From positions 434,001 to 498,000 of the forward strand of contig MEPU01000013.1 of the NCBI GenBank assembly GCA_001771815.1: a DNA stretch of 64,000 nt. The letters run 5' to 3'. This document shows, one piece after another, positions 7,898 through 49,353 of the stretch (position 1 is the stretch's first letter; every line of letters begins with the position of its first letter). A program made the position numbers and the translations under genes. The stretch comes from Bdellovibrionales bacterium RIFCSPHIGHO2_01_FULL_40_29 (GTDB taxonomy: Bacteria; Bdellovibrionota; Bdellovibrionia; Bdellovibrionales; Bdellovibrionaceae). The notes beneath the pieces are model-generated. The model was given only the letters and a program-made list of their open reading frames with translations. It ran no database searches and was not told the DNA's origin.

Positions 7898-7964
7898 TGC
7901 ACCTAAGTCTAGCTGTAAATAGATCAACGTGAAAGCAATCTTTAAGTATGGCAGACTTTTATCC

Positions 7965-8723: not shown

Positions 8724-9474
8724 GAAAAAAGACAATAATGAGGAACCTGAAAATCATGAACGCTGGCTGGTGTCGTACGCGGATTTCATTACGCTGTTAT
8801 TCGCATTTTTTGTCGTCATGTATGCCACATCTAGTAATAATCAGGAAAAACAAAAATCATTTCAAGATTCAGTTCGCGTTAATTTAAAGTTGACGGGGGC
8901 CGGGGCAGATTCTTCAGAAAAAGGGGACAGCGGAAATATTGGAGGCGAAAGCTCCAGAGATGTTCTGATTCCTTTGGATGGTTTTCCGCCTAATCGAGGC
9001 CCAGGTGAGACTAAGGATTATTTAAATCGTTTTGTCGAAGAAAAAATGGATGCAGAAGATAAATCCAAAATTCAAGAGTTGCGGCATGATGCATTGGGTG
9101 TACGGATTGCGCTGACATCATCACAGTTTTTTAATCCCGGTGGGACAAAAATTAAGGTCGGAGCGCTTAAAGCTTTGGATAAAATTGCACAGCTTTTAAA
9201 AGAAACTGATCGTAAGGTTGTCATCGAGGGGCATACGGATAATACACCGGTATCTCCAGGAGCGCCCTTTGAAACAAATTGGGAATTGGCCTCGTTGCGA
9301 GCCACAAGCATTGTTCGGTATTTTCAAAAATATCATGGTATTGATCCGAAGAGGTTATCGGCTATTTCATATGCTGAAACAAGGCCCTTAAAAAGCAACG
9401 ATTCTGAAGAGGGGCGCTCTCAGAATCGTCGAATTGAAATCTATATTATTTTAGATGACAAGTATCAGCAATAA
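8707..9474 (+). CDS. motB: MotB-type flagellar stator protein with OmpA domain
   Basis: A 255-residue partner of MotA. One membrane segment (about 21-42) contains SYADFITLLFAFF with the essential proton-carrying aspartate (about D26). The C-terminal OmpA/MotB peptidoglycan-binding domain runs from about 130 to 250, with the IEGHTDNTPV motif, the LASLRATSIVRYF helix and the SQNRRIEIYI ending. It anchors the stator to peptidoglycan around the flagellar rotor. It overlaps motA by 17 bp. Bdellovibrio species carry several motAB sets (established knowledge), so this may be one of a number of paralogous pairs. Confidence 0.92.
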   Translation: MSEDNKKKDNNEEPENHERWLVSYADFITLLFAFFVVMYATSSNNQEKQKSFQDSVRVNLKLTGAGADSSEKGDSGNIGGESSRDVLIPLDGFPPNRGPGETKDYLNRFVEEKMDAEDKSKIQELRHDALGVRIALTSSQFFNPGGTKIKVGALKALDKIAQLLKETDRKVVIEGHTDNTPVSPGAPFETNWELASLRATSIVRYFQKYHGIDPKRLSAISYAETRPLKSNDSEEGRSQNRRIEIYIILDDKYQQ

Positions 9475-10260: not shown

Positions 10261-13251
10261 CTATTGGCCCCGCTGATTTGCCGGTCGTTGCTGCGATGAG
10301 CGTTGTTGTCCTTTAACTTCATTCGAAAAATCGGCTCGAAACTGAGCGGTATCTATTTCAAGTCCCTTTGAAAGCATGATTCTCATTCTGATAAAACGGC
10401 GCACTTCGGATTCAACTTGTCGCAAACCCTGAACAGCAGAAACAATAACACGTTGGCGCAATGTAGGATTTTTGATCTCTAGATCTTTATAAACTTTATC
10501 AGTGGATTCAAATCCTGTTTCAGAAGGATCTCCTAGGATATCTTCACTTGCGGTAGTTATTGATTTGTCGACAGTTTTCAAACCTGCCGCAACTAATAAA
10601 TCCATTATTGCCGTGTCTATTTTTTTAGAGTGTGCGATGTAGGCGTCGAATTCAACTTTTTCTTGTAAAACAAAGGGATAGTAACTGTTCATTAAATCTG
10701 AAATAGTTTTGACTTCAATATAAGTCGTCCCATTGAGAGCTCGAAATGTATCTGTTTTTGATTGAGCAATAGTCTCTTCTAAATAGTTCCGACTTCCCTT
10801 TTTCAATTCTAATTTTGGTGTGAGTGCACGCTGTATAAGTTGTAAATAGAATTCAACTTCGGATTTGTATTGAGCCAATAGGCTGTCTTGCAAATATTTA
10901 CTTTGATTTAATAAATCGACACCTTTTTTATAAATTGAGCGTTGATTGAAAATATTGTTCTGAGTCTTGATAACAAGCCCCTGAAATTTTTTATCAAAAG
11001 ATTTAAATTCGCTTGTTACAGCAATTTTGCTGGCATTATCCCACCACGTATCTAATCCTGATTTACTTTCTTTATCTTGAATATTTCCGATAATATCATA
11101 TCGCAAATTATCGATGATATAGTTTTGCAACGATTTGCCCGCAATTTGAGAAGTGTAGAGGCTGTTTGTCGTCTGAGTTTGATTGCAAAACGCAGCACGA
11201 TCGGTGTTTTCTTTAAGCATTGTCGGTGGATCAAATTGCTGCGAAAGTATATCAACTCCAGCAAGTTTGGTTTTATCAAATGAGGCAACATTATTTCCAC
11301 AAATAAGTTTATACAGCATCAAATCAGATTCTTTGCTGAATTTGAATTGTTTCCAAACTGACCACTTGCTGTAATCGGCTCCATCGGAAATGCTTTTCAT
11401 GGGACCATTTTCCGTGAAGGCCTGTGTGAATCCAAGTAAGGGATAAACGATCGGGTATGGTTTGCCAAGTTGTTTACGAAGCAGCATCAAAATATCAAAC
11501 AGTTTTGTATTCAGATACATTCCGTAGCTATTTTCTTTTGATGTTGCGGGAACGACAGAAATGATTTGGTTCATATCGTTAATTCCTGCAGCGATCGTAT
11601 TTAGATTTCCAGAAGACATTTTCTTTATGATGTCTTTGAATTTATCCATTGCAATTCCAGTTAGAGGAACTTGCGATTTATCAAGTGCCTGCTTCACTGC
11701 TTGCATCGTTGCAGCGATATGTTCTAGTTGCCGTTCTTCAATTTCTGAAGGTTTATTTAAATAAAGATCTTCATTCGATCCACCCATTGCTTTGGCGTCA
11801 CCCATAGAAACTCCGAATAGCGGAAGTGTGCGGAATGGGTATCCCGATTTATTTTTCATTAAATCAGCATCTGAAGGGTTTTGTTGAATCCGATATTGAG
11901 TGTTTAAAGTTTCAAAGGCTGTGTTGGCGAATGAACGATAAAACTTATAGGCATAGTCCATTTGATTTAAAAGCTCTTTCGTCATTTCCATCCAACCGGC
12001 TAAATCGGCTTCAACATCTGAATTTAAATGATCTCGCCATTGCTGAGCCTGAATTCCGTAGTTTTCAATTTCTTTTTCAAGACTGGATTTTTCACATTTT
12101 GGTGGTAAAAAATAGGCATAAGCGACTCCTACGACGGGAACTGCTTTCCAAAAATTAAAACATTCTTTAACAGGCAGTTTTAATATTTTCTCATCCCAAT
12201 TGGCGTCATCATAGGCTTTCCAAAGTTTATTAATTTCATAGGCGTCAAAATCAAAAAACAGAGGTCGAATCAGATTATTCAATGGTCTATAAATATAGGG
12301 TGAAACAAGATGATCTACACCGACAAATAGAGTGAATTTAGTGACATTTCCAATCCAACGGATACCTTTCATCGTCCATGTTCCACCAGCAAAAGTCAGA
12401 GCCACATCGGCTCCGGTAACTTTATAGGCTTGTTTAACGAGCCATTCTTTATTTAAAATTTTCTTAGCGAAATCAGAATTAGTTTTTTTCCCAAGCCACT
12501 CGCGACTTTTATGATCAGCTAAATCTGTAACGGCTTGTGAAGCCCACATGGAAATAATCTGAGGAAAATACTGTGTGAACTTATTTCGAACAGTCCAGCT
12601 TTTCCATGCTTCATTGCAAGATTGGACAGACTGCTCATCAGTTTTTTGATTGATCCAGGAATCAACGCACATTTTTCCGCTATGACCCAAATCCGCAACA
12701 ATGCTGGATGCCAGAGACCCCAGTGCCATACCTTGATAGTTAAATCGACGCATCATCCGTTGTTGAATCATAGGGTGAGATGATTTGAATGCGGCCCCTT
12801 TTTGTTGAAAATCCATGTAAAACCCATTTGTCATCATAAACGCATAAAACGAAGCGTGTGCAATGGGATCCTTCAATGAAAGGATATGTCTTTCCATGGC
12901 CAAGGGGTCACCTTCAGATTTAATCCACATAGATGACGTTGTGACCAATCCAATTGCCACAAAAAATGTTAAACTTTCTGGGGTAAAGCGGTAGGTGGTA
13001 TTTAAGAAAACGCCATCTTTTTTTGATTTGGCTTGAGCCTCGTTATTCATTCTTAATAAATCAGCACGAATGATATCCAGAGCATTTGGATTTTGTGAAG
13101 TCGGTTCTGCAATCATAACGCCGGCATGAGATTCGCCAGCTTCATCGCCAGCAGTCACGACAGGTGCGACAACCACGGGTTGGTCTGACGCCTGGGCGGT
13201 TGTCAGGATGAAAATTAGCGATAGTGAAATAAGAGTCAATTGTTTCAACAT
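10261..13251 (-). CDS. Very large secreted protein of unknown function (996 aa)
   Basis: A 996-residue protein with a signal peptide (1-21, ending TTAQA). Two moderately hydrophobic stretches (about 93-110 and about 302-320) could be membrane-associated or buried. The rest is a long mixed helical sequence without repeats, catalytic motifs or known domains that I can recognise; the C-terminal about 20 residues are low-complexity, rich in Gln, Arg and Ser. It is transcribed alone. A cell-envelope or secreted structural role is possible, but function is unknown. Confidence 0.7.
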   Translation of the reverse strand: MLKQLTLISLSLIFILTTAQASDQPVVVAPVVTAGDEAGESHAGVMIAEPTSQNPNALDIIRADLLRMNNEAQAKSKKDGVFLNTTYRFTPESLTFFVAIGLVTTSSMWIKSEGDPLAMERHILSLKDPIAHASFYAFMMTNGFYMDFQQKGAAFKSSHPMIQQRMMRRFNYQGMALGSLASSIVADLGHSGKMCVDSWINQKTDEQSVQSCNEAWKSWTVRNKFTQYFPQIISMWASQAVTDLADHKSREWLGKKTNSDFAKKILNKEWLVKQAYKVTGADVALTFAGGTWTMKGIRWIGNVTKFTLFVGVDHLVSPYIYRPLNNLIRPLFFDFDAYEINKLWKAYDDANWDEKILKLPVKECFNFWKAVPVVGVAYAYFLPPKCEKSSLEKEIENYGIQAQQWRDHLNSDVEADLAGWMEMTKELLNQMDYAYKFYRSFANTAFETLNTQYRIQQNPSDADLMKNKSGYPFRTLPLFGVSMGDAKAMGGSNEDLYLNKPSEIEERQLEHIAATMQAVKQALDKSQVPLTGIAMDKFKDIIKKMSSGNLNTIAAGINDMNQIISVVPATSKENSYGMYLNTKLFDILMLLRKQLGKPYPIVYPLLGFTQAFTENGPMKSISDGADYSKWSVWKQFKFSKESDLMLYKLICGNNVASFDKTKLAGVDILSQQFDPPTMLKENTDRAAFCNQTQTTNSLYTSQIAGKSLQNYIIDNLRYDIIGNIQDKESKSGLDTWWDNASKIAVTSEFKSFDKKFQGLVIKTQNNIFNQRSIYKKGVDLLNQSKYLQDSLLAQYKSEVEFYLQLIQRALTPKLELKKGSRNYLEETIAQSKTDTFRALNGTTYIEVKTISDLMNSYYPFVLQEKVEFDAYIAHSKKIDTAIMDLLVAAGLKTVDKSITTASEDILGDPSETGFESTDKVYKDLEIKNPTLRQRVIVSAVQGLRQVESEVRRFIRMRIMLSKGLEIDTAQFRADFSNEVKGQQRSSQQRPANQRGQ

Positions 13252-13401: not shown

Positions 13402-13908
13402 TTAGTCTCTGATAATTTGAACGTGTTTTAAAATGATAGCTTCTAGGGGCTTGTCACCAGGAGCTGTTTTTGCTTTAGAGATGGCTTCAACGATAGGATA
13501 GCCTTCAACAACTTCACCAAAAATGGTATGACGGTTATCAAGCCATGGCGTCGGCACAACTGTAATAAAAAACTGGCTACCATTCGAGTTCGGGCCCGAG
13601 TTTGCCATCGAAAGGATTCCCGGCTTGCTATGTTTTAATGAGGGTGCAAATTCATCCGCAAATTTATAACCTGGATCACCAGTGCCCGTTCCGCGCGGAC
13701 ATCCACCCTGAATCATGAAATCTTTAATCACGCGGTGGAAATTTAAACCATCATAAAATGGACGTTTTGTTTTTTCACCAGTTTTAGCATCAGTGAATTC
13801 CTTGGTGCCTTCAGCTAATCCAACAAAATTTTCGACTGTTTTGGGAGCGAGATCATTGAAAAGTTTGATTTTAAAGTTGCCGACGCTGGTTTCAAAATTT
13901 GCATGCAT
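13402..13908 (-). CDS. ppiB: Cytoplasmic cyclophilin-type peptidyl-prolyl isomerase
   Basis: A 168-residue cyclophilin without a signal peptide, catalysing cis-trans isomerisation of prolyl bonds. The active-site set is visible: [13 protein letters not shown] with the catalytic arginine, the [16 protein letters not shown] segment, and [16 protein letters not shown] short insert (about 36-48, Lys/Thr-rich) is typical of the PpiB/Ppi1 group. An AAGGAA Shine-Dalgarno precedes the ATG. It follows a secreted cyclophilin gene by 19 bp, forming a cyclophilin pair at the end of the tol cluster. Confidence 0.93.
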
Positions 13909-13927
13909 TGTGAATTCCTTTTTCTAA

Positions 13928-14536
13928 TTATTTAGTTGTAATGGATTTAATTAAGATGGGTTTCTTTGGAACATTTTCATGGTCGCCCTTACTTCCAACA
14001 CTGACGGCGCGAATTTTATCCACAACATCCATCCCAGAAATAACTTTACCGAATACAGCATAACCATATTGAAGCTCAGAAACATGATCTAAGCGGTCGT
14101 TATCAACAACGTTTATAAAAAATTGAGCTGTCGCAGAATCTTTTTCATTCATGCGAGCCATTGCAATGGTGCCGCGCATATTTGAAAGTCCATTTTTAGC
14201 TTCATTTTTGATTGGTGGGTACTTCGAATCTTTTTCGGTCATATCAGGCAAGTGGCCACCACCCTGAATCATGAAGTCTTTCATGACTCGGTGGAAAATA
14301 GTTCCGTTGTAGTGTTTGTCATTGACGTATTTTAGAAAATTCTCAACCGAGATTGGTGCATTTTCAGGATTTAATTTGACGGTGATTTTACCCATGGATG
14401 TATCAATTACAACCGTATCTGCAGATTCTTTTTTATCTGCAGCATAAGTTTGAAAGCTAAAAGCCATCAGAACAAAAGCCAGCAAATAGATCCAAAAAAT
14501 AAGCAGACGACTCTGTTTCAGTGTATTTGTTTTCAT
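13928..14536 (-). CDS. ppiA: Periplasmic cyclophilin-type peptidyl-prolyl isomerase
   Basis: A 202-residue cyclophilin with a hydrophobic N-terminal signal (about residues 10-30, ending YAADKK), so it folds proteins in the periplasm. Core motifs are [31 protein letters not shown] and YAVFGKVISGMDVVDKI; the usual glycine/serine-rich stretch is replaced by NEKDSATAQFF as in PpiA. The start at 14536 is chosen to give a compact signal peptide; a 12-codon-longer ATG start at 14572 is possible. It lies 50 bp after tolB on the same strand. Confidence 0.9.
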   Translation of the reverse strand: MKTNTLKQSRLLIFWIYLLAFVLMAFSFQTYAADKKESADTVVIDTSMGKITVKLNPENAPISVENFLKYVNDKHYNGTIFHRVMKDFMIQGGGHLPDMTEKDSKYPPIKNEAKNGLSNMRGTIAMARMNEKDSATAQFFINVVDNDRLDHVSELQYGYAVFGKVISGMDVVDKIRAVSVGSKGDHENVPKKPILIKSITTK

Positions 14537-14586
14537 AGGTACACAGTTAGACAACCTTGAGGTTACCGTCAAGATTTGAGGGTTTG

Positions 14587-15966
14587 TTATTCAAGGTTGC
14601 GTGACCATTTAGGCTTATAATAGTTATAAGAATCATTAGTGACACGGCGTTCTTCGGATCCATCAACAGTTGATATAAAAACCTGATTCTTTCCTGTGCG
14701 ATTGCTTGTGTATACAAGATAACGACTATCTGGCGAAAAACTAGGATCTTCATTGTGAGCCCATTTTCCATTGGATTTTTTAACTGAAGTCACACGTGTT
14801 AATCCCGAACCATCGGCATTCATGACAAAGATATCAAAGTGATTTTCAGCTTGGCCAGCAAAGGCAATTTTTTTTCCATCTGGCGACCACGTCGGAGATG
14901 AATTGTAAGCACCATCAAATGTTAAACGCTTCACCCCGGATCCATCAATATTCATCACATAAATCATGGGACGACCTCCGCGCTCAGAAGAAAAAGCGAC
15001 TTTTGTACCTTCGGGATTTAGAGATGGTTCCACATTGATGGCGCCAGCGGGGCCATTTGTTAAACGAGTTATGATTTTTCCATTAAGATCAATTTTATAA
15101 ATGTCTGCTGATCCCGAGCCCTGTGACATTCCTAAAAGAATAGATTTTCCATCTGGTGAAAAAACAGCTCCGGAATTAACGCCGGGTCGATAGGATGTCA
15201 GTGTTCGTTTTCCAGAGGCTAAATCCAAAATATAAAGGCTGACGTTTGTCATCGAACTGGCGCCTTTGCGGATAAAAGTTGTAAATACAGAATAGGCAAT
15301 TTTTTTTCCATCAGGTGACCAGTTCGGTGAAATTGTGCTGGATTTATGTGAACTTAATTTTTCAATTTGTGTTCCATCCCAGTTCATAGAATAGACTTCT
15401 TTGGCTTGGCCACCGGCACGATCACTGGTCATGACGATTTTAGACATGAACGAACCTCGTACACCGGTCAATGCTTCTAGGACGTCATTTGCCAAAGTGT
15501 GTGCTATTTCTCGACTTCGTGAAAGCGGGGATCTGTATCTTTTTCCGACAACGAGTTTGGATTGAGGCACATGATACAAAAACATATCGACGACAACATC
15601 GGAATTGATAACAGAATATCCAGTTCGAATTAAAAACTCTGCGCCCGCAGTTTTTAAGGGTTCAAACTTGAATCCATTCACTTCTTTAGGACTAGGTTTA
15701 ATGCTGGTTTTTGCGGGATCTTCTAAAAACGCAGAATTTGACATCATTGTAAAATAAGTTGAAAGCTCTAAGTCGCGTTTGGCAATAGTGTAAATGTCTG
15801 CGGCCTGAGCTGTAACTGCTCCGGTATTTGTTGATCCTAGATTATTAAAAAATGGAAAAGCCAGAACGCTTTTGCGAGACTTGGCTTCGCCCATGCTGAT
15901 ATAGGATTGCTGTGCTTGCGAAAGCAAAGAAAAAAAGAAAATCAGACCAAATAAAAATCTCGACAT
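14587..15966 (-). CDS. tolB: Tol-Pal system beta-propeller protein TolB
   Basis: A 459-residue periplasmic protein of the Tol-Pal envelope-constriction system. A signal peptide (1-18, ending SLLSQAQQ) precedes the N-terminal TolB domain (about 25-165). The C-terminal propeller has repeated blades marked by WSPDGKKIAYSV, FSPDGKSILLGM, LNPEGTKVAFSS, WSPDGKKIAFAG and FSPDSRYLVYTS. The ATG at 15966 has an AAGGAGA Shine-Dalgarno 7 nt upstream, so the longer frame into tolA is rejected. It is the fourth gene of tolQ-tolR-tolA-tolB. No Pal gene follows; cyclophilin genes take that place. Confidence 0.95.
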   Translation of the reverse strand: MSRFLFGLIFFFSLLSQAQQSYISMGEAKSRKSVLAFPFFNNLGSTNTGAVTAQAADIYTIAKRDLELSTYFTMMSNSAFLEDPAKTSIKPSPKEVNGFKFEPLKTAGAEFLIRTGYSVINSDVVVDMFLYHVPQSKLVVGKRYRSPLSRSREIAHTLANDVLEALTGVRGSFMSKIVMTSDRAGGQAKEVYSMNWDGTQIEKLSSHKSSTISPNWSPDGKKIAYSVFTTFIRKGASSMTNVSLYILDLASGKRTLTSYRPGVNSGAVFSPDGKSILLGMSQGSGSADIYKIDLNGKIITRLTNGPAGAINVEPSLNPEGTKVAFSSERGGRPMIYVMNIDGSGVKRLTFDGAYNSSPTWSPDGKKIAFAGQAENHFDIFVMNADGSGLTRVTSVKKSNGKWAHNEDPSFSPDSRYLVYTSNRTGKNQVFISTVDGSEERRVTNDSYNYYKPKWSRNLE

Positions 15967-15985
15967 AAGAAATCTCCTTTGTGAA

Positions 15986-16789
15986 TTATTCTGGAAAACC
16001 AACAACAACGCCATCTCGACTGTATTTTTCAGAAAATTTTTCGGTAAACTTTGGAAAAGGTGAAGCCTGATCAATGGCTAATAAGCAATAGTCATCATAG
16101 GCAGGTTGACCGCTTGGCTGCACAATTTCTTTTGAAATAATTTTTCCAGAACTATCAAATTTGACGAGGACTCTGGTTTTATAAGATTTGTTCATAAGCC
16201 ATTGTGGCAGCGCCCAGTACTGCTTGATGTGACTATCCAGGTTTTGCAAATAGTTATCAGCCTGAAGTTTATCAAGGCCTGTGAGAGTGGATCCTGCGGA
16301 AATAACCCTTCCTTTGATAACAACAGGTTTGCGGGCAGCTTCAGCTTTCATTTCTTGTTTCATTTTATCAATCGCCGACAAGGCTTTCAATTTATCAAGT
16401 GCAGATTTTTGTTTTGCTTTGGCTTTTTTTAAACTGATCAGGTCGGGCTCCGGTTTTACTTCTTTTTTAGGAAGAGCTACTTTCTCAATTTTCTGAGGTT
16501 CTTCTTTTGCGGGAAGGGGGTCTGGTTTTTCTTCGACAGGATTTTCTTTTAAAATATTTTGAATTTTTTGAGGCATTTCATTTGGCTTTAATTGATCAGG
16601 TAAAGAAACCATATCAACTCGCACAGCTTGAGAAATATCAATTAAAGGTTTGCTAAAAAAAGTCACCTGCACAACAGCCACTGCCAAAACGATAGCATGA
16701 GCCAAAAATGAAATTAAAACCCCTTGATTAAACCGTTTGGTTTTATCGGATTGAGTTTGTTGTGGTGGCGTGAGCTCTTTGACTGGCAA
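15986..16789 (-). CDS. tolA: TolA/TonB-family energy transducer
   Basis: A 267-residue protein linking the TolQR motor to the outer membrane. One membrane helix (about 24-44) is followed by a Lys/Glu/Pro-rich rod (about 75-170) and a small C-terminal TonB/TolA-like domain (about 180-267) containing KTRVLVKFDSSGKI and the QPSGQPAYDDYCLLAI segment. It begins with TTG four nt after the tolR stop, with AAGGAT upstream. The rod is shorter than in E. coli TolA. Its position between tolR and tolB supports TolA over TonB. Confidence 0.9.
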   Translation of the reverse strand: MPVKELTPPQQTQSDKTKRFNQGVLISFLAHAIVLAVAVVQVTFFSKPLIDISQAVRVDMVSLPDQLKPNEMPQKIQNILKENPVEEKPDPLPAKEEPQKIEKVALPKKEVKPEPDLISLKKAKAKQKSALDKLKALSAIDKMKQEMKAEAARKPVVIKGRVISAGSTLTGLDKLQADNYLQNLDSHIKQYWALPQWLMNKSYKTRVLVKFDSSGKIISKEIVQPSGQPAYDDYCLLAIDQASPFPKFTEKFSEKYSRDGVVVGFPE

Positions 16790-16792
16790 AAA

Positions 16793-17212
16793 TTAATCCT
16801 TTGGAATGGTAATCAAGTTAATATTAAAAATACCTGCGGCTCGAATTTCAGCCATAGCTTGAGCCACCACACCATAATCAACCTTGGTATCGGCTTGAAT
16901 ATAAATTTGTTTGTTTTTTCGAATATCAAAAATGGCTTTTAATTTTTCTTTCATTTGATCGATTTCAATTTCAATGTCGCCGACTTTGACTTGACCTTTG
17001 GCATTGATAAGCAAGACAAAGGGATCTTCTTGAAGATCCACTCCAGATGCGGCTGTCTTTGGTAAATTGACTTCTATTCCCTGTTGCATCAATGGAGTTG
17101 TGACCATGAAAATAATTAAAAGCACAAGCATAACATCAACAAAGGGAGTGACATTGATTTCGCTCATAACAGTTTTTGAATGACCACGAGATGACTGCGG
17201 TGACATAGCCAT
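16793..17212 (-). CDS. tolR: Biopolymer transport protein TolR/ExbD
   Basis: A 139-residue inner-membrane protein with a single N-terminal helix (about 21-41) containing the proton-relay aspartate in TPFVDVMLVLLIIFMV (about D26). The periplasmic domain carries the ExbD/TolR-type GIEVNLPKT and LLINAKGQV strands. It works with TolQ as a proton-driven motor. A GGG-containing Shine-Dalgarno precedes the ATG, and it is 3 nt downstream of tolQ, consistent with co-expression. Confidence 0.94.
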   Translation of the reverse strand: MAMSPQSSRGHSKTVMSEINVTPFVDVMLVLLIIFMVTTPLMQQGIEVNLPKTAASGVDLQEDPFVLLINAKGQVKVGDIEIEIDQMKEKLKAIFDIRKNKQIYIQADTKVDYGVVAQAMAEIRAAGIFNINLITIPKD

Positions 17213-17215
17213 AAA

Positions 17216-18028
17216 TTACCCTTTGAAAAAGTTACGTTTTACAACATTTAAAAAATCCGCAGTAAAATTATTCAGATCAATTTCTTCTTTTCGAATGACT
17301 GCAATAAAGTGATTGTAAATGATAACGGCAGGGATGGCCGCGGCTAAGCCAATAGCTGTGGCAATCAGGGCTTCAGAAATTCCGGGTGCGACGACAGCTA
17401 AGCTGGCCATTCCCGTTTGACCAATTTTATGAAAAGATCCCATAATTCCCCAAACCGTTCCAAAGAGTCCGATAAAGGGACCTGTCGAACCTGTTGAGGC
17501 CAAAATAGTTAAACGGGATTCCATGTCGGACATTTCGTTTTCAATTGTTTTTCGAGTCACACGTTCCAGATTATCTATTCCTGAAAGCTGGGGAGATTCT
17601 GTATCTGCGGGGTTGTTTTTGCTGAGTAGAGGAGACTCGGCAATTTTTTTCATTTCTAAGTATGCCGCTTTAAAAACTCGAGCATGGGAGCTAGCTGTAT
17701 GTGCATTCATTTTTTCATACATATCATCCAGAGAGTTTGTTTTATAAAATTGCTGATCAAAAAGCTCATTGGCTGTTTTTAAATTTTTAAATTGTTTGTA
17801 TTTGGACCAGCCAATAGCCCAGCATAGAATTGAAAGACTCAACAAAGCCAGTAAAACGAGTTGCACCACAAAGCTGGCTTGCAAAAGAGAATCAATAGAT
17901 CCCATTTGAACCGCGACGTTGGGCGAGGTTGGGGCTGGGGCGGCGAACACATTTTGTGATAGGATTAAAGAGGTTAAAAAAATTGCGGATTTTAATTTTT
18001 GTAAGAAGGAAATATTTTTGTTTTTCAT
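17216..18028 (-). CDS. tolQ: MotA/TolQ/ExbB proton channel protein
   Basis: A 270-residue TolQ-type channel subunit. Three membrane helices are visible: one near 45-70 and the conserved pair around 165-230 with STGPFIGLFGTVWGIMGSF and SEALIATAIGLAAAIPAVI. The start at 18028 leaves an N-terminal extension (about 1-35) that itself looks like a signal peptide ending NVFAAPAP, which E. coli TolQ lacks but some ExbB proteins have. AGGAT lies upstream of the ATG. It heads the tolQRAB operon and is divergent from the transglycosylase gene with 22 bp between starts. Confidence 0.92.
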   Translation of the reverse strand: MKNKNISFLQKLKSAIFLTSLILSQNVFAAPAPTSPNVAVQMGSIDSLLQASFVVQLVLLALLSLSILCWAIGWSKYKQFKNLKTANELFDQQFYKTNSLDDMYEKMNAHTASSHARVFKAAYLEMKKIAESPLLSKNNPADTESPQLSGIDNLERVTRKTIENEMSDMESRLTILASTGSTGPFIGLFGTVWGIMGSFHKIGQTGMASLAVVAPGISEALIATAIGLAAAIPAVIIYNHFIAVIRKEEIDLNNFTADFLNVVKRNFFKG

Positions 18029-18050
18029 ATTCAAAATCCTAAAACGAATC

Positions 18051-19172
18051 ATGGCTCTGGGCAAGGCGAAATCCAGACAAATAGCAATGAGCATGGTATC
18101 CATTTTTCTACTTCATTGTGTGCACCATCAGGTGCCAACAACTGTCACTCGTGATCCAGCAGCACTAGACGCTGACAACAAAGTGCAGCGCTATGCGTTT
18201 GAACAGTGTACGTCAGAGAGTCGATTGTATTTAGAGGATCAAATTTTGAGAATGCCCGAAGTTTACTATCGGTCACATCAGAATGAATGGACACAGCGAA
18301 TACCAATGAGTTGTTTTCAGTTTGCCCAAAAAAATTATGGAGGCGCTTTTGCTCAGTGTGCTGATGAGGATGCGAAACCAACAACGAACGCGCGCCGTCC
18401 CTGCATGACTGAAATTTATGTCACGCTAGCTTATAATGCATATCATGATGTGATGGATTGTTTTAGCCTAGATCCAAAAGATTATTTTTTGCAAATTATG
18501 ATCGAGAGTGGATTTCATATCAATGCTATCAATCGAACGGGCTTTGATGCGGGAATGGCGCAATTTACTGCGAATGGAATTAAGAAAGTGCTCGAAAATA
18601 ATCAAGTGCAACGCGTTCGGAATCACTTGTTTTCGAGTTCGAGACCTTCGTGCTCTAGAATTTCAAGCATTATGGGTGATTTTGATATTGAATCCCATGC
18701 CGTTAAGAATCGTTGTGCCATGATTGCGACTCCACAGAATCCTTATCGAAGTATGTTTTTTTATTTTTTACATCGAATGTCTGATCAAATTGTTTTATCC
18801 GATATGCTTTCTGAAATCTCAGATCTTAATGGCGTGATGTCAGAGCGCTTGAAGAAGCATTTAACATATTTAGCTTACAATCGCGGTTTGACTGGAACAA
18901 AGCGAATTTTAAAAGGCTACATTGAATCTCGTCGTGTTGTGGGTCATCAAATAGTTCCAGAGGATTTTGATTTAGAAAAAAACTTAAGTGCTATTAAAAA
19001 AATTCTTCGAATGGATTCTGACAAGCGAGACCAACTTCGCAGCGCCAAGAGAATAAAAAACTTATCGTTCGCTGAATATGCTGTTATTCATGGAGCCACT
19101 TATGTCTCGGATATGGCAGCAGCAAATCAGATGGTGCGACGCTATCTGGGTGATCAGTGTGGCGGGCTTTAG
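18051..19172 (+). CDS. Lipoprotein with SLT-like lytic transglycosylase domain
   Basis: A 373-residue protein with a lipobox-like end to its signal (FLLHC, C23) and a central segment resembling Slt-family muramidases: the motif around E152, MIESGFHINAINRTGFDAGMAQF in two parts (149-160 and 161-172), matches the usual ESxFxPxAxSxxGAxGLMQ pattern, and LAYNRGLTG later matches the AYNxG motif. It would cleave peptidoglycan glycan strands at the outer membrane. Substitutions (Gly-Phe-Asp, Met-Ala-Gln-Phe) make it a divergent member. The start could also be the ATG at 18087. It is divergent from tolQ, hinting at shared cell-wall control. Confidence 0.72.
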   Translation: MALGKAKSRQIAMSMVSIFLLHCVHHQVPTTVTRDPAALDADNKVQRYAFEQCTSESRLYLEDQILRMPEVYYRSHQNEWTQRIPMSCFQFAQKNYGGAFAQCADEDAKPTTNARRPCMTEIYVTLAYNAYHDVMDCFSLDPKDYFLQIMIESGFHINAINRTGFDAGMAQFTANGIKKVLENNQVQRVRNHLFSSSRPSCSRISSIMGDFDIESHAVKNRCAMIATPQNPYRSMFFYFLHRMSDQIVLSDMLSEISDLNGVMSERLKKHLTYLAYNRGLTGTKRILKGYIESRRVVGHQIVPEDFDLEKNLSAIKKILRMDSDKRDQLRSAKRIKNLSFAEYAVIHGATYVSDMAAANQMVRRYLGDQCGGL

Positions 19173-19237
19173 ACTAATTTGAGATGAGGTCTTGTCAAAT
19201 GTGAGCGACCCTGTTAATCGTTGGCAAAGAGGATCCT

Positions 19238-19996
19238 ATGCGAATCATACTTGTCACTTTTTGTAGCTTAATCGCGTGTCTTATTATTTTTTGGACGGTT
19301 AAATTTTGGGGGCGTTCTCAGCATTACGTTCCGTACTCTCATCCCATTTATGTGGCGGCAGCCCAAAGCTCGGCTCCACTTATTTTTATTAAACCGAAAT
19401 TCGAGAATTTCGAATCAGCCATTAACTCAAATCAAAATCTTTACTTAAATGTGGCAACGACCTCAGATCAGATTCTTGTAATTCCTAAGAGAGAATTCAA
19501 AGAAAAGGCCATTCGTAATTCAAAAATGAGTGAAATTGCTTCCGATGTTGTTCTCTTCAGCACAGTAAAGGAAAAATTAGAGAATCGTTTTTTAGTTTTA
19601 AACTTATTGGAAAATGCTCACGCGGGGCATGCGATTTTTTGGGATGAGTTGAAAAAAATGGGATGGGACAAGGGCGAGCGATTGATTATTACAAGTCCCT
19701 ACGAAGCGATTGCAAAATCTTTGAAAGAGCTGGCGCCGGCGTTGCTTTATGGCTCGACACAGCCTGAAATTTTGCGAATTGTCGCGATGGATTCTATGAA
19801 TTTAATTGAGGCGGTTAGTCTGCGCGCGGATGTCATTATACATCCTCTTAAAATTCGAAATCAGGATTTTTATCAGGAAACCATTTTAAAAGAACTCAAG
19901 CGTCGCCATAAGCAAATTCTTGTTGGTCCTGTGACTGAAGAGCAGCTCTCTGTTGCATTAGATTTGCAGCCATTGGGTATCATTGTCGAAAAATAG
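19238..19996 (+). CDS. Membrane-anchored GDPD-like protein lacking catalytic residues
   Basis: A 252-residue protein with an N-terminal membrane segment (about 4-23). The rest follows the order of a glycerophosphodiester phosphodiesterase TIM barrel: a P-FENFESAI helix, the strand NLYLNVATTSDQILVI, RFLVLNLLEN, LIITSPYEAIAKSLKELAP, and the closing VSLRADVIIHPLKI and LDLQPLGIIVEK. The usual HRG, E-x-D and HD active-site residues are replaced (IKPK, YLNVAT, PKRE), so hydrolase activity is unlikely. The assignment comes from pattern matching by eye. A GAGGA Shine-Dalgarno precedes the ATG. Confidence 0.6.
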   Translation: MRIILVTFCSLIACLIIFWTVKFWGRSQHYVPYSHPIYVAAAQSSAPLIFIKPKFENFESAINSNQNLYLNVATTSDQILVIPKREFKEKAIRNSKMSEIASDVVLFSTVKEKLENRFLVLNLLENAHAGHAIFWDELKKMGWDKGERLIITSPYEAIAKSLKELAPALLYGSTQPEILRIVAMDSMNLIEAVSLRADVIIHPLKIRNQDFYQETILKELKRRHKQILVGPVTEEQLSVALDLQPLGIIVEK

Positions 19997-20126: not shown

Positions 20127-20531
20127 ATGATCAAAATGAATCGAAAAATGGAATATGCCCTAATGGCTTTGCGCCATATGAGCCAGAAATCAACGACTCA
20201 GCTGACTTCAGCAAAAGAGATCGCCGATCACATGCATATTCCATTTGATGTCATAGCCCGAGTGCTTCAGGTTCTGTCGTCAAAGGGTTTACTAAAGGCA
20301 GAATATGGAGCGTCAGGCGGATACTCGTTAGCTCGTCCATTAAGCGAAGTTTCAGTTCATGATCTTTCGGAAATGTTAGAGGGGCACGTGTCTTTAACAA
20401 AATGTCTTTCTAGTGATGAGCCTTGTGATATTTCATCGGCGTGCAATATCACGAATCCCATTTTAACATTAAATAAAAAGGTTCAAGAATTTTACCGTTC
20501 AGTTCCTCTAAGCGAGGTTCTGCATGTCTGA
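20127..20531 (+). CDS. Rrf2-family Fe-S-sensing regulator of the suf operon
   Basis: A 134-residue winged-helix repressor of the Rrf2 family (IscR/SufR type). The helix-turn-helix covers about 26-55 ([20 protein letters not shown]), followed by the wing [11 protein letters not shown]. Three cysteines (C93, C100, C106) stand in the place of the [2Fe-2S] ligands of IscR, although the first spacing is six residues rather than five. As first gene of the suf cluster it probably senses Fe-S status and represses its own operon through the upstream palindrome. Its end overlaps sufB by 8 bp. Confidence 0.88.
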
Positions 20532-21945
20532 AAATTATGAATACAAATATGGATTTTCGACAGATATTGAATCGGAAAATGTAGGTAAAGGTCTTAACGA
20601 GGACATTGTCCGTATTATTTCAGCTAAAAAAAATGAACCTGAATGGATGTTAGAATATCGTCTCAAAGCGTATCGGCATTGGATCACACTGAAAGAGCCG
20701 ACTTGGGCTTTAGTGAATTATCCAAAAATTGATTTTCAAGATTTAACTTATTACTCAGCCCCGAAGCCAAAGAAAGCGACTCCACAATCCATGGATGAAA
20801 TTGATCCGGAGTTGATTAAAACATTCGAGCGATTGGGCATTCCACTTCAAGAGCAAAAACGAATTTCTGGTGTTGCTGTGGATGTGGTTTTTGACTCTGT
20901 AAGTATTGCGACAACTCACCACGAAGAGTTGGAAAAAGTCGGAGTTATCTTTTGCTCTATTTCAGAAGCCTTGAAAAAACATCCTGAATTGGTGCGAAAA
21001 CATTTGGGCACCGTTGTTCCTATTACAGATAATTACTATGCGGCTTTGAATGCGGCTGTTTTTTCAGATGGTTCATTTTGCTATATTCCCAAAGGTGTGC
21101 GTTGTCCGATGGACTTATCGACTTACTTCCGAATCAATGCCAAAGAGACTGGACAGTTCGAGCGAACATTGATTATTGCTGAAGAGGGAAGTTACGTGAA
21201 TTATCTCGAGGGATGTACGGCTCCTCAGCGCGATGAAAATCAGTTGCATGCGGCTGTGGTTGAATTGATCGCGTTTGATCATGCTGAAATTAAATATTCA
21301 ACAGTACAAAATTGGTATGCTGGTGATAAAAACGGTAACGGTGGAATTTATAATTTCGTCACTAAACGCGGGATTTGCAAAGGCATCAGTTCTAAAATTT
21401 CTTGGACACAGGTTGAATCGGGTTCGGCAATCACGTGGAAATATCCATCTGTTATTTTACAGGGCGATAATTCAGAGGGAGCTTTTTACTCCGTTGCATT
21501 AACGCATGATTATATGCAGGCCGATACCGGAACAAAAATGATTCACATCGGAAAAAATACAAAAAGCACAATTATTTCTAAGGGCATTTCTGCAGATCAG
21601 TCGTCAAACGCTTATCGCGGTCAGGTGAAGATCATGCCATCAGCAGAGAATGCTCGAAATTATTCACAGTGTGATTCGATGCTGGTGGGTGACAAATGCA
21701 GTGCACACACTTTTCCATATATTGAAGTCAAAAATAAATCAGCCACATTAGAGCATGAAGCCACAACTTCTAGGATTTCTGAAGATCAAATTTTTTATTT
21801 GAACTCACGAGGTCTTAGTGGAGAAAAAGCCATTTCAATGTTGGTGAATGGTTTTTGCAAGGATGTTTTTAAACAACTGCCATTAGAATTTTCAGTTGAA
21901 GCCGTTAAGCTCATTGAAATGAAGTTAGAAAACTCGGTCGGATAA
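20524..21945 (+). CDS. sufB: Fe-S cluster assembly protein SufB
   Basis: A 473-residue scaffold component of the SufBCD complex that assembles Fe-S clusters. It has the SufB N-terminal segment with [14 protein letters not shown] (about 37-50), the beta-helix core with [19 protein letters not shown], and the late [17 protein letters not shown] region with the conserved cysteine in the scaffold site, ending with the helical SufBD tail ([12 protein letters not shown]). Length matches SufB. The start overlaps the regulator stop, so expression is coupled. Confidence 0.97.
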
Positions 21946-21960
21946 AGAGGAAGCGAAAAT

Positions 21961-22710
21961 ATGTTACAGATTACAAATCTTCACGCCAAAATTGACAGCA
22001 AAGAAATTCTTAAAGGACTTTCCTTGAAGGTCAACGCCGGAGAAGTTCATGCGATTATGGGACCCAATGGTTCTGGTAAAAGCACTCTTTCAAAAATTTT
22101 AGCAGGGCACCCATCGTACGAAGTGACGAGTGGCGAAATAAAGTTTGAAATTAATTTTCAAATGCAAAATTTATTAGAGCTGTCTCCAGACGCTCGAGCT
22201 AAGGAAGGTATTTTTTTAGCATTTCAATACCCTATTGAAGTTCCTGGAGTTTCAAATTTTAATTTTTTACATGAATCTTTTAATGCGGTTCTGACTCATC
22301 AGGGCTCTGAACCTATGCCCGAGGGTGAATTCCGAGAATTTTTGTTTCAAAAAATGAAACTTGTAAATATGAAACCGGAATACTTGGATCGCGCTGTTAA
22401 TGTTGGTTTTTCGGGCGGAGAAAAAAAACGCAATGAAATATTACAAATGGCAGTTCTCTCGCCACGATTGGCTTTGTTAGATGAAACGGACTCTGGATTA
22501 GATATTGATGCACTTAAAACAGTTGCTGAAGGCGTTAATAAATTGCGTTCAAAGCAGAATGCAATTGTCTTGGTCACCCATTATCAAAGGCTTCTGGATT
22601 ATATTAAGCCGGACTTTGTGCACGTGTTGGCCAATGGAAAAATTATTCAAACTGGTGATGCTAGCTTAGCTTTAGAGCTTGAAAAAAAAGGATACGACTG
22701 GTTGTTGTAA
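21961..22710 (+). CDS. sufC: Fe-S assembly ATPase SufC
   Basis: A 249-residue cytoplasmic ABC-type ATPase that drives the SufBCD complex. Walker A is GPNGSGKST (34-42), the signature is FSGGEKKRNEI, and Walker B is LALLDETDSGLDIDAL with the SufC-specific ETDSGLD motif. The start has an AGAGGAAG Shine-Dalgarno. It lies 15 bp after sufB. Its stop codon falls within a stable hairpin that separates it from sufD. Confidence 0.97.
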   Translation: MLQITNLHAKIDSKEILKGLSLKVNAGEVHAIMGPNGSGKSTLSKILAGHPSYEVTSGEIKFEINFQMQNLLELSPDARAKEGIFLAFQYPIEVPGVSNFNFLHESFNAVLTHQGSEPMPEGEFREFLFQKMKLVNMKPEYLDRAVNVGFSGGEKKRNEILQMAVLSPRLALLDETDSGLDIDALKTVAEGVNKLRSKQNAIVLVTHYQRLLDYIKPDFVHVLANGKIIQTGDASLALELEKKGYDWLL

Positions 22711-22717
22711 CCAGTCG
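22695..22717 (+). other. Hairpin over the sufC stop codon
   Basis: CGACTGGTT and AACCAGTCG form a perfect 9-bp stem with a 5-nt loop; the sufC TAA starts in the loop and ends in the 3' arm. No U-tract follows, so it is not a standard terminator. It ends 9 nt before the sufD ATG, which has no Shine-Dalgarno, so it could affect translation of sufD or mRNA stability. Confidence 0.6.
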
Positions 22718-22726
22718 ATTTATATC

Positions 22727-23941
22727 ATGATAAGTACAGACCTATCTCAATTAGAAACTTTAAAACAAATTCTTCCGACTCGAAAAGAAGAGGCTTGGAA
22801 ATACACGTCTCTTGCGGATTTTAAGGCGTTTTCGTGGAATTCAGTTGCCGAAGAGGGCTCTGAGTTCATGACTCACGATCAAATGCAGAAGCTCTCTTTA
22901 AATTTACCAGCTGATTTTTATAATCTTGTTTTTGTAAATGGCATTTTGAATGTCACTCTATCAGATGAACTGTCAGATTCAATTCAAGTTCAAACCATTG
23001 AAGACACGGATTTAATTATTTCAGATGATCATCCTGAAAAAAATCTTTTGAAATTTTCGAACTCTTGTCTACGTAAAAAAACAGTTGTTTCGGTGACGGC
23101 TCATCAGGTTTTACAAAAACCAATTCATTTTTTATATGTGCAGAACTCTAAAAAATCTCTGTTTAGCAGCGAAAAAGTTGCAATTCACATTGGTAAAAAT
23201 GCGGAAGTGACCTTGATAAGTCAGACCATTAGCTTGGATGATTCTATTCAGGGATCCATTAATTTGAATATGAATCTTTCGGTTGATGAGGATGCCCGGG
23301 TTAAATTCATTCAAATTCAGAATGAAAATCAAATCTCGTATCACTTTGCTCAAACCGAAGTGCAACTTTCATCGAATGCGCAGTGGAAGTCCTTGATTAT
23401 GACTTTAGGTGGCAAGTTGATTCGTCACTATTTTCATATTGCGATGTCGGGGCATGGTGCGGATGCGCAAATTCTGGGACTAAATGCTTTAGGAGACACC
23501 CAGCATTCGGATCATTATACATTTATTCAACATGTAAAGGGTGGGAACCAATCTCGGCAGCTATTTAAATCTGTTTTATCGGATTCATCACATGGTGTGT
23601 TTCGAGGGCGAGTGCGCATCGAACGTGACGCGCAAAAAGCAAGTTCTGAGCAATTGAATAATAATTTATTGCTGACTCGTGAAGCTCAAGCAGATTCGAT
23701 TCCTCAGTTGGAAATTTATGCGGATGATGTGAAGGCCGGACATGGCTCAACCGTGGGTCAGTTGAATAAAGATGAAATATTTTATTTTTTGAGCCGTGGA
23801 ATTAATCAGTATCAAGCTGTCAAAATGCTTTCGATCGGATTTGCTCAGGATCTTGTTTTTCAATTTGAAGATAAAATCGTGCAGGATTGGCTATTAAAAA
23901 AATTGAATACTAAGCTAGATGGGATGATTAAAAATGTTTAA
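22727..23941 (+). CDS. sufD: Fe-S cluster assembly protein SufD
   Basis: A 404-residue SufD subunit, partner of SufB and SufC. The N-terminal LPTRKEEAWKYTSLADF motif (about 14-30) is diagnostic, and the C-terminal SufBD core includes HGSTVGQLNKDEIFYFLSRG (split across about 344-363) shared with SufB. The ATG at 22727 is used; the open frame extends back into sufC but has no better start. No Shine-Dalgarno is visible, suggesting re-initiation after sufC. It overlaps sufS by 8 bp. Confidence 0.94.
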   Translation: MISTDLSQLETLKQILPTRKEEAWKYTSLADFKAFSWNSVAEEGSEFMTHDQMQKLSLNLPADFYNLVFVNGILNVTLSDELSDSIQVQTIEDTDLIISDDHPEKNLLKFSNSCLRKKTVVSVTAHQVLQKPIHFLYVQNSKKSLFSSEKVAIHIGKNAEVTLISQTISLDDSIQGSINLNMNLSVDEDARVKFIQIQNENQISYHFAQTEVQLSSNAQWKSLIMTLGGKLIRHYFHIAMSGHGADAQILGLNALGDTQHSDHYTFIQHVKGGNQSRQLFKSVLSDSSHGVFRGRVRIERDAQKASSEQLNNNLLLTREAQADSIPQLEIYADDVKAGHGSTVGQLNKDEIFYFLSRGINQYQAVKMLSIGFAQDLVFQFEDKIVQDWLLKKLNTKLDGMIKNV

Positions 23942-25151
23942 TCTTCAAGAGGTTCGAGCCCAGTTTCCAGCACTAAAACAAAAAGTTCATGGTCAGGATT
24001 TAGTCTATTTGGACAGTGCCGCGACGACGTTAAAACCACAAAGTGTGATTGACCGAATCAATCAGTATTATTCATTTGAAACCGCAAATGTTCATCGTGG
24101 CGCACATTATCTGAGCGATATGGCAACAGCTGAATTTGAGAAAGCTCGAGAAACTATTCGTCAGTTTATAAATGCTAGCACAACAGAAGAAATTATTTTC
24201 ACCAAAGGCACGACAGAAGGTTTAAATCTGATTGCGTGCAGTTATGGAGAGAATTTTTTAAACGAAGGTGACGAGATCGTAATCACTGAATTGGAGCATC
24301 ATGCCAATATTGTGCCGTGGCAGGTTCTGGCTCAGAAAAAAAATTGTCAGTTAAAATTTATTTCAGTCGATGCTCAGGGTGAATTGGACTATGGCAGTTT
24401 AGATAAAATGATAACCTCAAAAACTAAAATTGTGAGTTTTTCGGGGTGTTCTAATATTTTAGGGACAATGATTTCTGTGGAAAAAGTTGTTCAAAAGGCA
24501 AAATCAGTTGGTGCTGTGACAATTTTAGATGCCGCGCAGTTGGTTTCTCAAGAAATAATTGATGTTCAAAAGTGGGGTGTCGATTTCTTGGTGTTTTCGG
24601 CGCATAAGTTATTTGGTCCCTATGGTTTTGGTGTTCTGTTTGGTCGAAAAGCATTGCTTGTAAAAATGCCTCCATACCAAACGGGTGGCAGTATGATTTC
24701 CTGTGTTGATTTTAAATCGACGACCTATAATGATCTGCCGTTTAAATTTGAAGCCGGTACTCCTCATATTGAGGGCGCCATTGGAACAGCTGCAGCAATT
24801 GATTTTTTTCGAAGTTTTAATATCCGAGATATTTTTAATCACGAGCAAAAGTTGATGACCCAATTAAAAATTGGTTTTTCTGAAATACCCGAGATTCGCT
24901 TGTTTGGAGTAGCTGCTCAGAAGGCGGCAATTGTCAGTTTCACCATGAATGGTGCCCACCATTCGGATATTGGACAAATTTTAGATCAACAAGGTGTTGC
25001 TGTTCGCGTGGGTCATCACTGCACGCAGCCCCTTCTGAAAAAATTTAATCTGACGGGTACTGTTCGCGCTTCTATTTCCATTTATAATTCCGAAAATGAT
25101 ATTCAAAGATTGATCGAATCAGTGAAAAAAGCCAAAAGGATGCTACTATGA
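23934..25151 (+). CDS. sufS: Cysteine desulfurase SufS
   Basis: A 405-residue PLP enzyme of the group II cysteine desulfurases, releasing sulfur from cysteine for Fe-S assembly. The PLP-binding lysine is K225 in SAHKLFGPYG, the substrate histidine is in EHHANIVPW, and the persulfide-forming cysteine is C363 in RVGHHCTQPL. All key residues are intact. It overlaps sufD by 8 bp and nfu by 4 bp. No SufE or SufU activator gene is present in the operon. Confidence 0.96.
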   Translation: MFNLQEVRAQFPALKQKVHGQDLVYLDSAATTLKPQSVIDRINQYYSFETANVHRGAHYLSDMATAEFEKARETIRQFINASTTEEIIFTKGTTEGLNLIACSYGENFLNEGDEIVITELEHHANIVPWQVLAQKKNCQLKFISVDAQGELDYGSLDKMITSKTKIVSFSGCSNILGTMISVEKVVQKAKSVGAVTILDAAQLVSQEIIDVQKWGVDFLVFSAHKLFGPYGFGVLFGRKALLVKMPPYQTGGSMISCVDFKSTTYNDLPFKFEAGTPHIEGAIGTAAAIDFFRSFNIRDIFNHEQKLMTQLKIGFSEIPEIRLFGVAAQKAAIVSFTMNGAHHSDIGQILDQQGVAVRVGHHCTQPLLKKFNLTGTVRASISIYNSENDIQRLIESVKKAKRMLL

Positions 25152-25708
25152 CAGCAACTGAAGTTTTGATACGAGTTCAGGCGACCCCAAACCCTAATGC
25201 CTGGAAATTTGTTTTAGATCGCCCCGTTTTAAATGATGGAAAAGCCACTTATTCAACGATAGAAGAGGCTGAACACAATATTTTATCAAAATCATTATTT
25301 CAGATTGAGGGTGTTCGACAAGTTCACTTTTTTCAGAATGTCATCACGGTAACTCATCAATTTGATATTGAGAGTGATAAGTTGCAAGAGCAAGTTTGTA
25401 GCGTTATTCAAACACGCATGCCTGTTCATAATCCCAATCAGACCATTTTGGACGAAAAAAAAATGGCTCGACAGAATCTTTCACCAGAGTTGCAGAAAAT
25501 TGAAGAGATTCTAGATCGAACGATTCGCCCTGGCTTACAAGGCGATGGGGGAGATATTGAAATTATTAAATTTGAGGACAATAAAGTGTATGTGTCTTAC
25601 CAGGGAGCATGTGGCACATGTCCAAGTTCTACGACAGGCACCTTGATGGCCATCGAAGGAATTTTAAAGGACGAGTACAATCCCGCGATCGAAGTGATCC
25701 CGCTTTAG
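25148..25708 (+). CDS. nfu: Nfu-type Fe-S carrier protein
   Basis: A 186-residue two-domain protein. Residues about 5-95 match the Nfu N-terminal domain (VQATPNPNAWKFVLDRP), and about 112-186 are the NifU C-terminal domain with the cluster-binding CxxC (C155 and C158) in GACGTCPSS. It would carry newly made clusters from SufBCD to target proteins. It ends the suf operon and overlaps sufS by 4 bp; its stop overlaps the convergent gene by 4 bp. Confidence 0.93.
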   Translation: MTATEVLIRVQATPNPNAWKFVLDRPVLNDGKATYSTIEEAEHNILSKSLFQIEGVRQVHFFQNVITVTHQFDIESDKLQEQVCSVIQTRMPVHNPNQTILDEKKMARQNLSPELQKIEEILDRTIRPGLQGDGGDIEIIKFEDNKVYVSYQGACGTCPSSTTGTLMAIEGILKDEYNPAIEVIPL

Positions 25709-31021: not shown

Positions 31022-31188
31022 AAAAAAGGTCCGTAGACAACTCTGAAAGATAAACCTCTTTTTTGCAAGGTGGGTGACCATGATAACAACTTTAGGCTTC
31101 TTACTACGAGGTAAGCTTGCTCACCATTGTCAGGGACAGTCCCCAATATTATGCTTGTAAGGTTTATTTTCGATGAGTTTTACGCCTA
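31022..31188 (-). ncRNA. ssrS: 6S RNA
   Basis: Read on the minus strand, this region contains the 6S-specific block GGTGAGCA..., ...AGAAGCCTAAAG and ...TCACC in the order seen in E. coli 6S RNA. The two ends can form the long irregular closing stem: AGGCGTA near 31187-31181 with TACG-GA-CCT near 31036-31028, ACTC with GAGT, and ATAAACCT (31167-31160) with AGGTTTAT. A short GGGA/TCCC hairpin lies in the 5' strand of the central region, and a run of six T closes the 3' end at 31027-31022. 6S RNA binds sigma70 RNA polymerase and down-regulates transcription in stationary phase. The exact ends are estimated. Confidence 0.85.
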
Positions 31189-31196
31189 TCGAACCC

Positions 31197-49337: not shown

Positions 49338-49353
49338 GCTACAAGTTTTAGCA

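Follow-up and report, generated by a model that had tools for sequence, protein, structure and literature searches.

A GDPD-superfamily protein with a replaced active site is encoded by a widespread companion of tolQ

The protein encoded at 19238-19996 on the + strand of the window (the whole stretch of 64,000 nucleotides analyzed here, from a host genome of 2.9 Mb) is a member of the GDPD superfamily by fold and descent. Its gene is found together with tolQ across most of the class, a relationship that an earlier note on this DNA had overlooked. We regard the identification of the protein as a pseudo-GDPD as close to certain. Our best explanation of its function, which we hold to be about evenly balanced between right and wrong, is that it serves as a non-catalytic inner-membrane partner of the TolQRA(B) motor, with which we infer that it makes contact.

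Fold and active site

The open reading frame, its translation and its relatives define a protein of 252 amino acids followed by a stop codon. The frame is clean and starts with an ATG, which is preceded at a distance of five bases by a GAGG (19229-19232). The window protein alone had no match to Pfam at E ≤ 1 or to NCBIfam at E ≤ 5, and a search against PDB sequences gave two chance-level matches and no others (E = 0.32 and 1.8). These single-sequence searches were uninformative, and the relationship to GDPDs is visible only through relatives of the protein.

Relatives were found in 79 of 99 related genomes by a single-sequence search with the window protein, and a profile of 68 members matched 112 of the 119 genomes of the class. 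Because some of these 112 have paralogous GDPDs alone (G128, for example), we worked instead with the 103 genomes that have a family member. These 103 rows, one per genome, were aligned with three reference GDPDs using MAFFT for analysis of the active site. The count of 103 excludes the references and L068 (82 amino acids, at a contig end), and it includes some partial rows (such as L051) and a doubtful one (L185, which is not beside tolQ). The larger profile alignment holds 68 of 70 loci (L051 and L068 were omitted), and the alignment of the window's own family holds 48; the 50 window-family rows cited below are these 48 together with L178 and L183.

The 68-member profile matched the solved GDPD 2pz0 in the PDB at E = 5.6e-23. 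A profile made from the 48 degraded members of the window's family, which has zero intact active sites and so gets no help from intact members, also matched 2pz0 (E = 4.7e-7) and 8ghh (E = 1.6e-4), as well as a designed TIM barrel (E = 1.3e-5). When aligned to an intact orthologue (L065) with hhalign, this profile gave a full-length match at a probability of 99.6. The Pfam family PF03009 is matched at E ≤ 0.01 by 12 of the 68 orthologues and not by the window protein. The earlier note had named a profile search placing the protein outside the GDPD superfamily as the result that would speak against its reading; the outcome was the opposite, with the profiles matching GDPDs.

An AlphaFold2 model based on the 48 window-family sequences (mean pLDDT 96.8, pTM 0.90) consists of an N-terminal helix and a GDPD-type TIM barrel at approximately residues 45-252 (19370-19993, +). 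In a Foldseek search of the model, which the earlier note had also proposed, GDPDs were the top matches, with 8ghh at E = 3.3e-12. Comparison by VIA, with rows covering residues 34-252, aligned 214 residues of 8ghh with a Z score of 18.6 and an rmsd of 3.6, and every GDPD row listed had a Z score of at least 12.2 (the lowest two were 12.4 and 12.2). Entries with non-GDPD titles were also found, including two titled multidomain beta-1,3(4)-glucanase (17.1 and 16.5), phospholipase D (11.8 and below) and tryptophan synthase alpha, an unrelated barrel (11.0). The profile, hhalign, AlphaFold2, Foldseek and VIA results all agree with the GDPD-like TIM barrel that had been proposed from the letters of the DNA.

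The positions used for catalysis in GDPDs are occupied by other residues in the window protein (all on the + strand). I51-K52 (19388-19393) lies where the first catalytic His (HRG motif) would be expected, the hhalign and MAFFT alignments differing by one residue and therefore giving either I51 or K52 in that column, and both alignments indicate that the ENT motif is absent. Both also place Y69-x-N71 (19442-19450) at the metal-binding E-x-D; residue 69 is Y or W in 44 of the 50 window-family rows, and residue 71 is D or N in 41. K84 (19487-19489) is in the place of the second catalytic His, that of the HD motif. Further along, N122 and N126 (19601-19615) are present in 41 and 48 of the 50 rows, respectively, and N122 occupies the place of the metal-binding Glu of E-x-K, although the exact pairing is not beyond doubt, as the alignment to 2pz0 shifts this strand by two residues. 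N126 was considered as a substitute for the Lys of E-x-K, and this was dropped: hhalign and MAFFT align N122 with the Glu and L124 with the Lys. Finally, the W-T of the GDPD WTVN strand, found in five members of the family with an intact site, is replaced by G230-P231 (19925-19930), each of which is present in 46 of the 50 rows.

The earlier claim that all catalytic motifs had been lost is borne out, since HRG, ENT, E-x-D, HD, E-x-K and WTVN are all replaced. With its catalytic site absent, the window protein is almost certainly a pseudoenzyme and not a GDPD enzyme. A re-tooled active site, with another metal or none, might still act on a phosphodiester or some other bond, and the strong conservation of the polar residues N122, N126 and S153 in the window's family, together with the D or N at the second metal position in most rows, would fit such an enzyme. 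The protein has neither of the catalytic His residues and none of the three acidic metal ligands, however, and the replacements of the two His vary among relatives; we consider continued catalysis very improbable. A single further GDPD is encoded in the window's genome (C8:45179-45829, E = 9.6e-25), and HRG, E-x-D and HD are visible in its translation.

Descent, anchoring and selection

The earlier note had also overlooked that some orthologues are intact. There were five rows among the 103 with an intact active site: L061 (genome G077), L065 (G064), L157 (G067), L168 (G130) and L172 (G129), the last of which has Asp for the Glu of E-x-K. One member, L054 (G072), is a half-way case: it has YRG for HRG and FD for HD, its ENT is kept, its E-x-D is replaced, and in E-x-K the Glu is kept and the Lys lost. 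Pseudoenzymes on enzyme folds have typically lost their catalytic residues while the fold was kept under purifying selection. The present case differs from others in that intact, half-degraded and dead orthologues share one syntenic position.

We analyzed the descent of the family with a maximum likelihood gene tree built from 10 paralogous GDPDs and 36 of the 103 rows. A branch separated the family from the paralogues (100/94), and the intact members were inside the family. The degraded G072 sequence was nested with the intact sequences of G077 and G067 (99/90), so the tree points to one GDPD lineage that lost catalysis on two or more occasions and retained the gene. A tree of concatenated tol and suf sequences (86 loci) gave the same placement of G072 (1.00) and a sister pair in which the site is lost in G068 and intact in G064 (0.98). 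Strict loss-only counting on the tol/suf tree gives eight losses, and the gene tree forces two; given the great length of the G068 branch and the weak backbone, we limit the claim to the lower figure as a minimum. The sequences of the outgroup family f11, which are intact and have no helix, were located among intact members of the order and not outside them (96/87), a position that was unexpected.

A membrane helix was detected by a hydropathy scan in 97 of the 103 family rows. In the model of the window protein it comprises residues 2-26 (19241-19315, +), in agreement with the membrane anchor described previously, and it ends at W24-G25, which are present in 46 and 49 of the 50 window-family rows, respectively. 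Two features of the barrel are conserved well beyond the window's family. D198 (19829-19831, +) is found in all 50 window-family rows and in 45 of the 53 other rows, and the signature E219-x-x-R222-R223 (19892-19906, +) is found in 46 of the 50 and 45 of the 53, and in none of the 10 paralogues; R223 is invariant in the window's family, and E219 is present in 46 rows. Among the intact members, the signature is present in the three with a helix and absent from the two without one, and the D198 column has D, E and D in the former and D and K in the latter. As judged from these alignments, the E-x-x-R-R signature goes with the anchored form. Its presence in both intact and dead anchored members indicates that it is older than the loss of catalysis.

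The degraded members are under purifying selection. The ratio dN/dS was between 0.04 and 0.14 in all 22 unsaturated pairs, although these are rough values as most of the pairs have dS above 1; the two pairs with dS below 1 gave 0.054 (L029-L037) and 0.093 (L059-L060). The sample consisted of 15 of the 103 sequences, none of them from the window's genus, and provided 30 pairs more than 60% identical, eight of which were saturated. The low ratios indicate that the relatives are kept by selection. Along with the clean frame, they support the earlier view that the gene is maintained and not decaying, with the window's genus lying outside the dN/dS test.

The suggestion of a conserved ligand pocket was not supported. 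The old active-site face was not enriched in conservation (permutation p = 0.19; 57 of 207 circular shifts were as high), the means being 0.446 for that face, 0.422 for the rest of the barrel and 0.457 for the opposite face. The pattern fits a scaffold or an interface no less well than a pocket. These findings bear on the possibility that the protein is a ligand-binding pseudoenzyme apart from Tol, with a remodeled barrel mouth (Y69, N71, N122, N126, S153 and G230-P231) to which glycerophosphodiesters or lipid head groups would bind, for signaling or storage. There are indeed new conserved residues at or near old active-site positions (N122, N126, G230 and P231), and the linkage to tolQ described below is broken in one genus and altered in the window's own. 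In contrast, conservation is no higher on the active-site face, the most widely conserved positions (D198, E219 and R223) are outside the catalytic motif columns, and N126 is kept in only six of the 53 rows outside the window's family. We think that this reading is unlikely.

The composition of the soluble part favors a barrel on the periplasmic side of the membrane. There were four Cys in 11389 residues of the soluble part in 48 window-family members, and 45 of the 48 rows had none. The number of Cys per 1000 residues was 0.00 for TolR and 0.49 for TolB, and also low for TolA, compared to 16 for SufB and 9 for SufS. The value for cytoplasmic SufC was low too (2.99 per 1000), which weakens the argument. 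The depletion is also less pronounced across all rows, with 75 of 103 having no Cys, and the charges flanking the helix are even (+1.07 before and +1.09 after).

A single N-terminal helix with a soluble domain, encoded beside tolQ, resembles the TolA/TonB-type and vWA transducers covered in parts of a survey (PMC12204202). The TolA/TonB proteins have a linker and a C-terminal domain, whereas in the window protein the GDPD barrel is close behind the helix. Excerpts of the same survey describe a conserved His in the membrane helix of TolA and TonB; the window-family helix has no conserved His or SHLS-type motif, and residues 1-26 contribute M1, R2, W24 and G25 to the 35 most conserved positions. 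We ruled out a TolA-like transducer because the helix motif is absent.

The resemblance to the GDPD/GlpQ/UgpQ family (PF03009; 2pz0, 8ghh, 5t9c) is in the TIM barrel, the order of segments and descent via intact orthologues. The window protein differs from that family in its replaced motifs, N-terminal helix, E219-x-x-R-R223 signature and linkage to tolQ.

The tol and suf neighborhood

The gene lies between a tol cluster and a suf cluster. The tol genes are on the - strand of the window: tolQ at 17216-18103 (MotA_ExbB, 2.3e-34; the true start is probably further in), tolR at 16793-17212 (ExbD, 5.6e-28), a tolA-like gene with a TonB_2 C-terminal domain at 15986-16789 (4e-13), and tolB at 14587-16074 (PD40, 1.5e-35; TolB_N, 1.1e-4). 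Parts of PMC3169522 describe several TolQR-like motor sets in Bdellovibrio; the set in the window is called tol because tolR, tolA and tolB follow. On the + strand, an SLT-like (lytic transglycosylase-like) gene at 18051-19172 (Pfam SLT, E = 0.0035, below the cut-off, scanned from 18054) precedes the pseudo-GDPD gene. The suf side begins with a gene for an Rrf2-type regulator at 20127-20531 (+; Rrf2, 1.4e-26) and continues with sufB, sufC, sufD, sufS and an Nfu-type gene at 20524-25708 (+; SUFBD_core, 3e-78; NifU, 1.9e-23), of which sufC, sufD and sufS were named from their sequence.

Several other features of the window were observed. Two cyclophilin-type peptidyl-prolyl isomerases are encoded at 13402-14572 (-), immediately after tolB, in the position expected for pal. 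Pal and, with question marks, CpoB and SufE had been candidate identities for neighbors in the window, and these were ruled out; the proteins are the two cyclophilins and the Nfu-type protein. An open reading frame of 996 amino acids near the tol cluster (10261-13251, -) has no Pfam match at E ≤ 0.001 and is matched in some neighborhoods, and in many others an unmatched open reading frame of about 800 amino acids follows tolB. The SLT-like protein belongs to a Cys-rich family (110 Cys in 11 proteins) and has a possible lipobox; its gene was not labeled in pieces outside the window's genus. A lytic transglycosylase beside tol-pal is mentioned for Chlamydia in sections of PMC7391070. There is also a MotA/MotB-type stator pair at 7929-9474 (+), a 6S RNA at 31023-31190 (-) and a class A RNase P RNA at 49353-49765 (+).

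We compared 87 neighborhoods, the window and 86 pieces, all chosen for a family hit, such that the counts measure linkage given presence of the gene. In 67 of the 87, tolQ followed on the same strand at a distance of at most 350 bp, with a median gap of 65 bp. In the remaining neighborhoods, tolQ was further downstream on the same strand (8), in the opposite orientation (7) or not in the piece (5, two of which are at contig ends). Linkage extends to the intact members: tolQ is directly downstream of L065 (as L107), L157, L168 and L172, and the piece with L061 (as L108) stops at a contig end, beside Rrf2-suf. The earlier statement that the gene is near envelope genes thus agrees with what was found, with tolQRAB adjoining it in the window and tolQ linked to it in most neighborhoods.

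Other observations count against a special link to Tol. On the other side there is usually a divergent Rrf2-suf cluster, and SufB is in 79 of the 87 pieces, making the suf flank as regular as the tol flank. In one genus (g5), whose tolQRAB genes are elsewhere, two members (L102 and L121) keep the gene beside suf with no tolQ nearby, and no family member precedes tolQRAB in G017, G042 or G035 (loci L221-L223). Each of the 11 pieces from the window's genus has the SLT-like gene between the pseudo-GDPD gene and tolQ, and in seven, including the window, the pseudo-GDPD gene is inverted relative to tolQ; these seven account for all of the opposite-orientation cases.

The gene could be part of an old synteny block beside tolQ and suf, doing some general inner-membrane job unrelated to both. 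Consistent with this, the block of suf, gene and tol is kept whole in most neighborhoods, so that the link to tolQ alone is not special, and the gene order differs in the window's genus and in g5. However, the gene is on the same strand as tolQ with a short gap and is mostly divergent from Rrf2-suf. In addition, the tolQ link occurs with no SufB in the piece in L120, L123, L168, L172 and L178 (and in the short pieces L083 and L183), with the reverse in one genus. We judge an unrelated job to be improbable.

The association has limits within and beyond the class. The class members G080, G125 and G128 have tol and no family gene at tolQ, and G124 has no family gene near tolB, tolQ being unrecognized in that piece. 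The f11 type of GDPD, intact and without a helix, is directly upstream of tolQ in G129 (L172) and G130 (L168) and not in G128. Outside the class, there was no GDPD-like open reading frame in 19 tol pieces, in 16 of which the upstream neighbor of tolQ was visible. In 13 of these 16 (L201-L206, L208-L210 and L213-L216), all from other classes of the phylum, tolQ is preceded on its own strand by a gene for a protein of 275-365 amino acids that looks multi-spanning by eye, apparently a different companion of tolQ.

A possible role with the Tol motor

We propose that a GDPD anchored in the inner membrane and encoded first in the tolQRAB cluster lost the residues for catalysis and metal binding, and that its fold, anchor, E219-x-x-R222-R223 and D198 would have been retained after catalysis was lost. 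With its barrel facing the periplasm from the inner membrane, the protein would act with TolQRA as a non-catalytic adaptor. It could be a docking adaptor or one that senses lipid head groups for maintenance of the outer membrane, which the Tol machine holds together, and perhaps it still recognizes such head groups. A more far-reaching version, which we offer tentatively and incline to doubt, is that the protein is an unrecognized Tol subunit in the class of Bdellovibrio, a membrane-anchored phospholipid-metabolism enzyme converted more than once to a non-catalytic Tol partner, which would connect Tol physically and directly to the handling of glycerophospholipids.

There is a parallel in E. 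coli for an additional gene accompanying tolQRAB, since ybgC stands first in the tol-pal operon there. The products of ybgC (cytoplasmic) and of cpoB (periplasmic), the other such gene, are unrelated to the anchored GDPD barrel, and the class examined here is the only one in which the barrel was seen beside tolQ. Parts of PMC12204202 and PMC7391070 describe ybgC as a lipid-related gene belonging to this operon that encodes a cytoplasmic thioesterase. Tol-Pal has been tied to glycerophospholipid movement (in sections of PMC6013679), and tol-pal mutants are described as retaining phospholipids in the outer membrane (in excerpts of PMC7391070, PMC12204202 and PMC6013679). Against a direct lipid role for Tol, a passage of the review PMC7391070 regards any part of Tol-Pal in phospholipid traffic as indirect.

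No description of the gene was found in the portions covered of the open-access literature on GDPD in Bdellovibrio, pseudoenzymes and Tol-Pal. In the available text of a 2025 survey of tol-pal (PMC12204202) there is no mention of such a gene and there are no occurrences of 'glycerophosph', and there is nothing on this gene in the main text of an mBio paper from 2019 (PMC6561027) or in parts of PMC11656739.

Direct action of Tol-Pal on phospholipids is unsettled, and it is posed as a question in a discussion heading in the accessible part of PMC6013679. A gene derived from a GDPD and kept with tolQ in most of a class provides a concrete handle on this question, among the kin of predators whose way of life centers on envelope work. 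With intact, half-degraded and dead forms at one position, the locus also serves as a natural series for the change from enzyme to pseudoenzyme.
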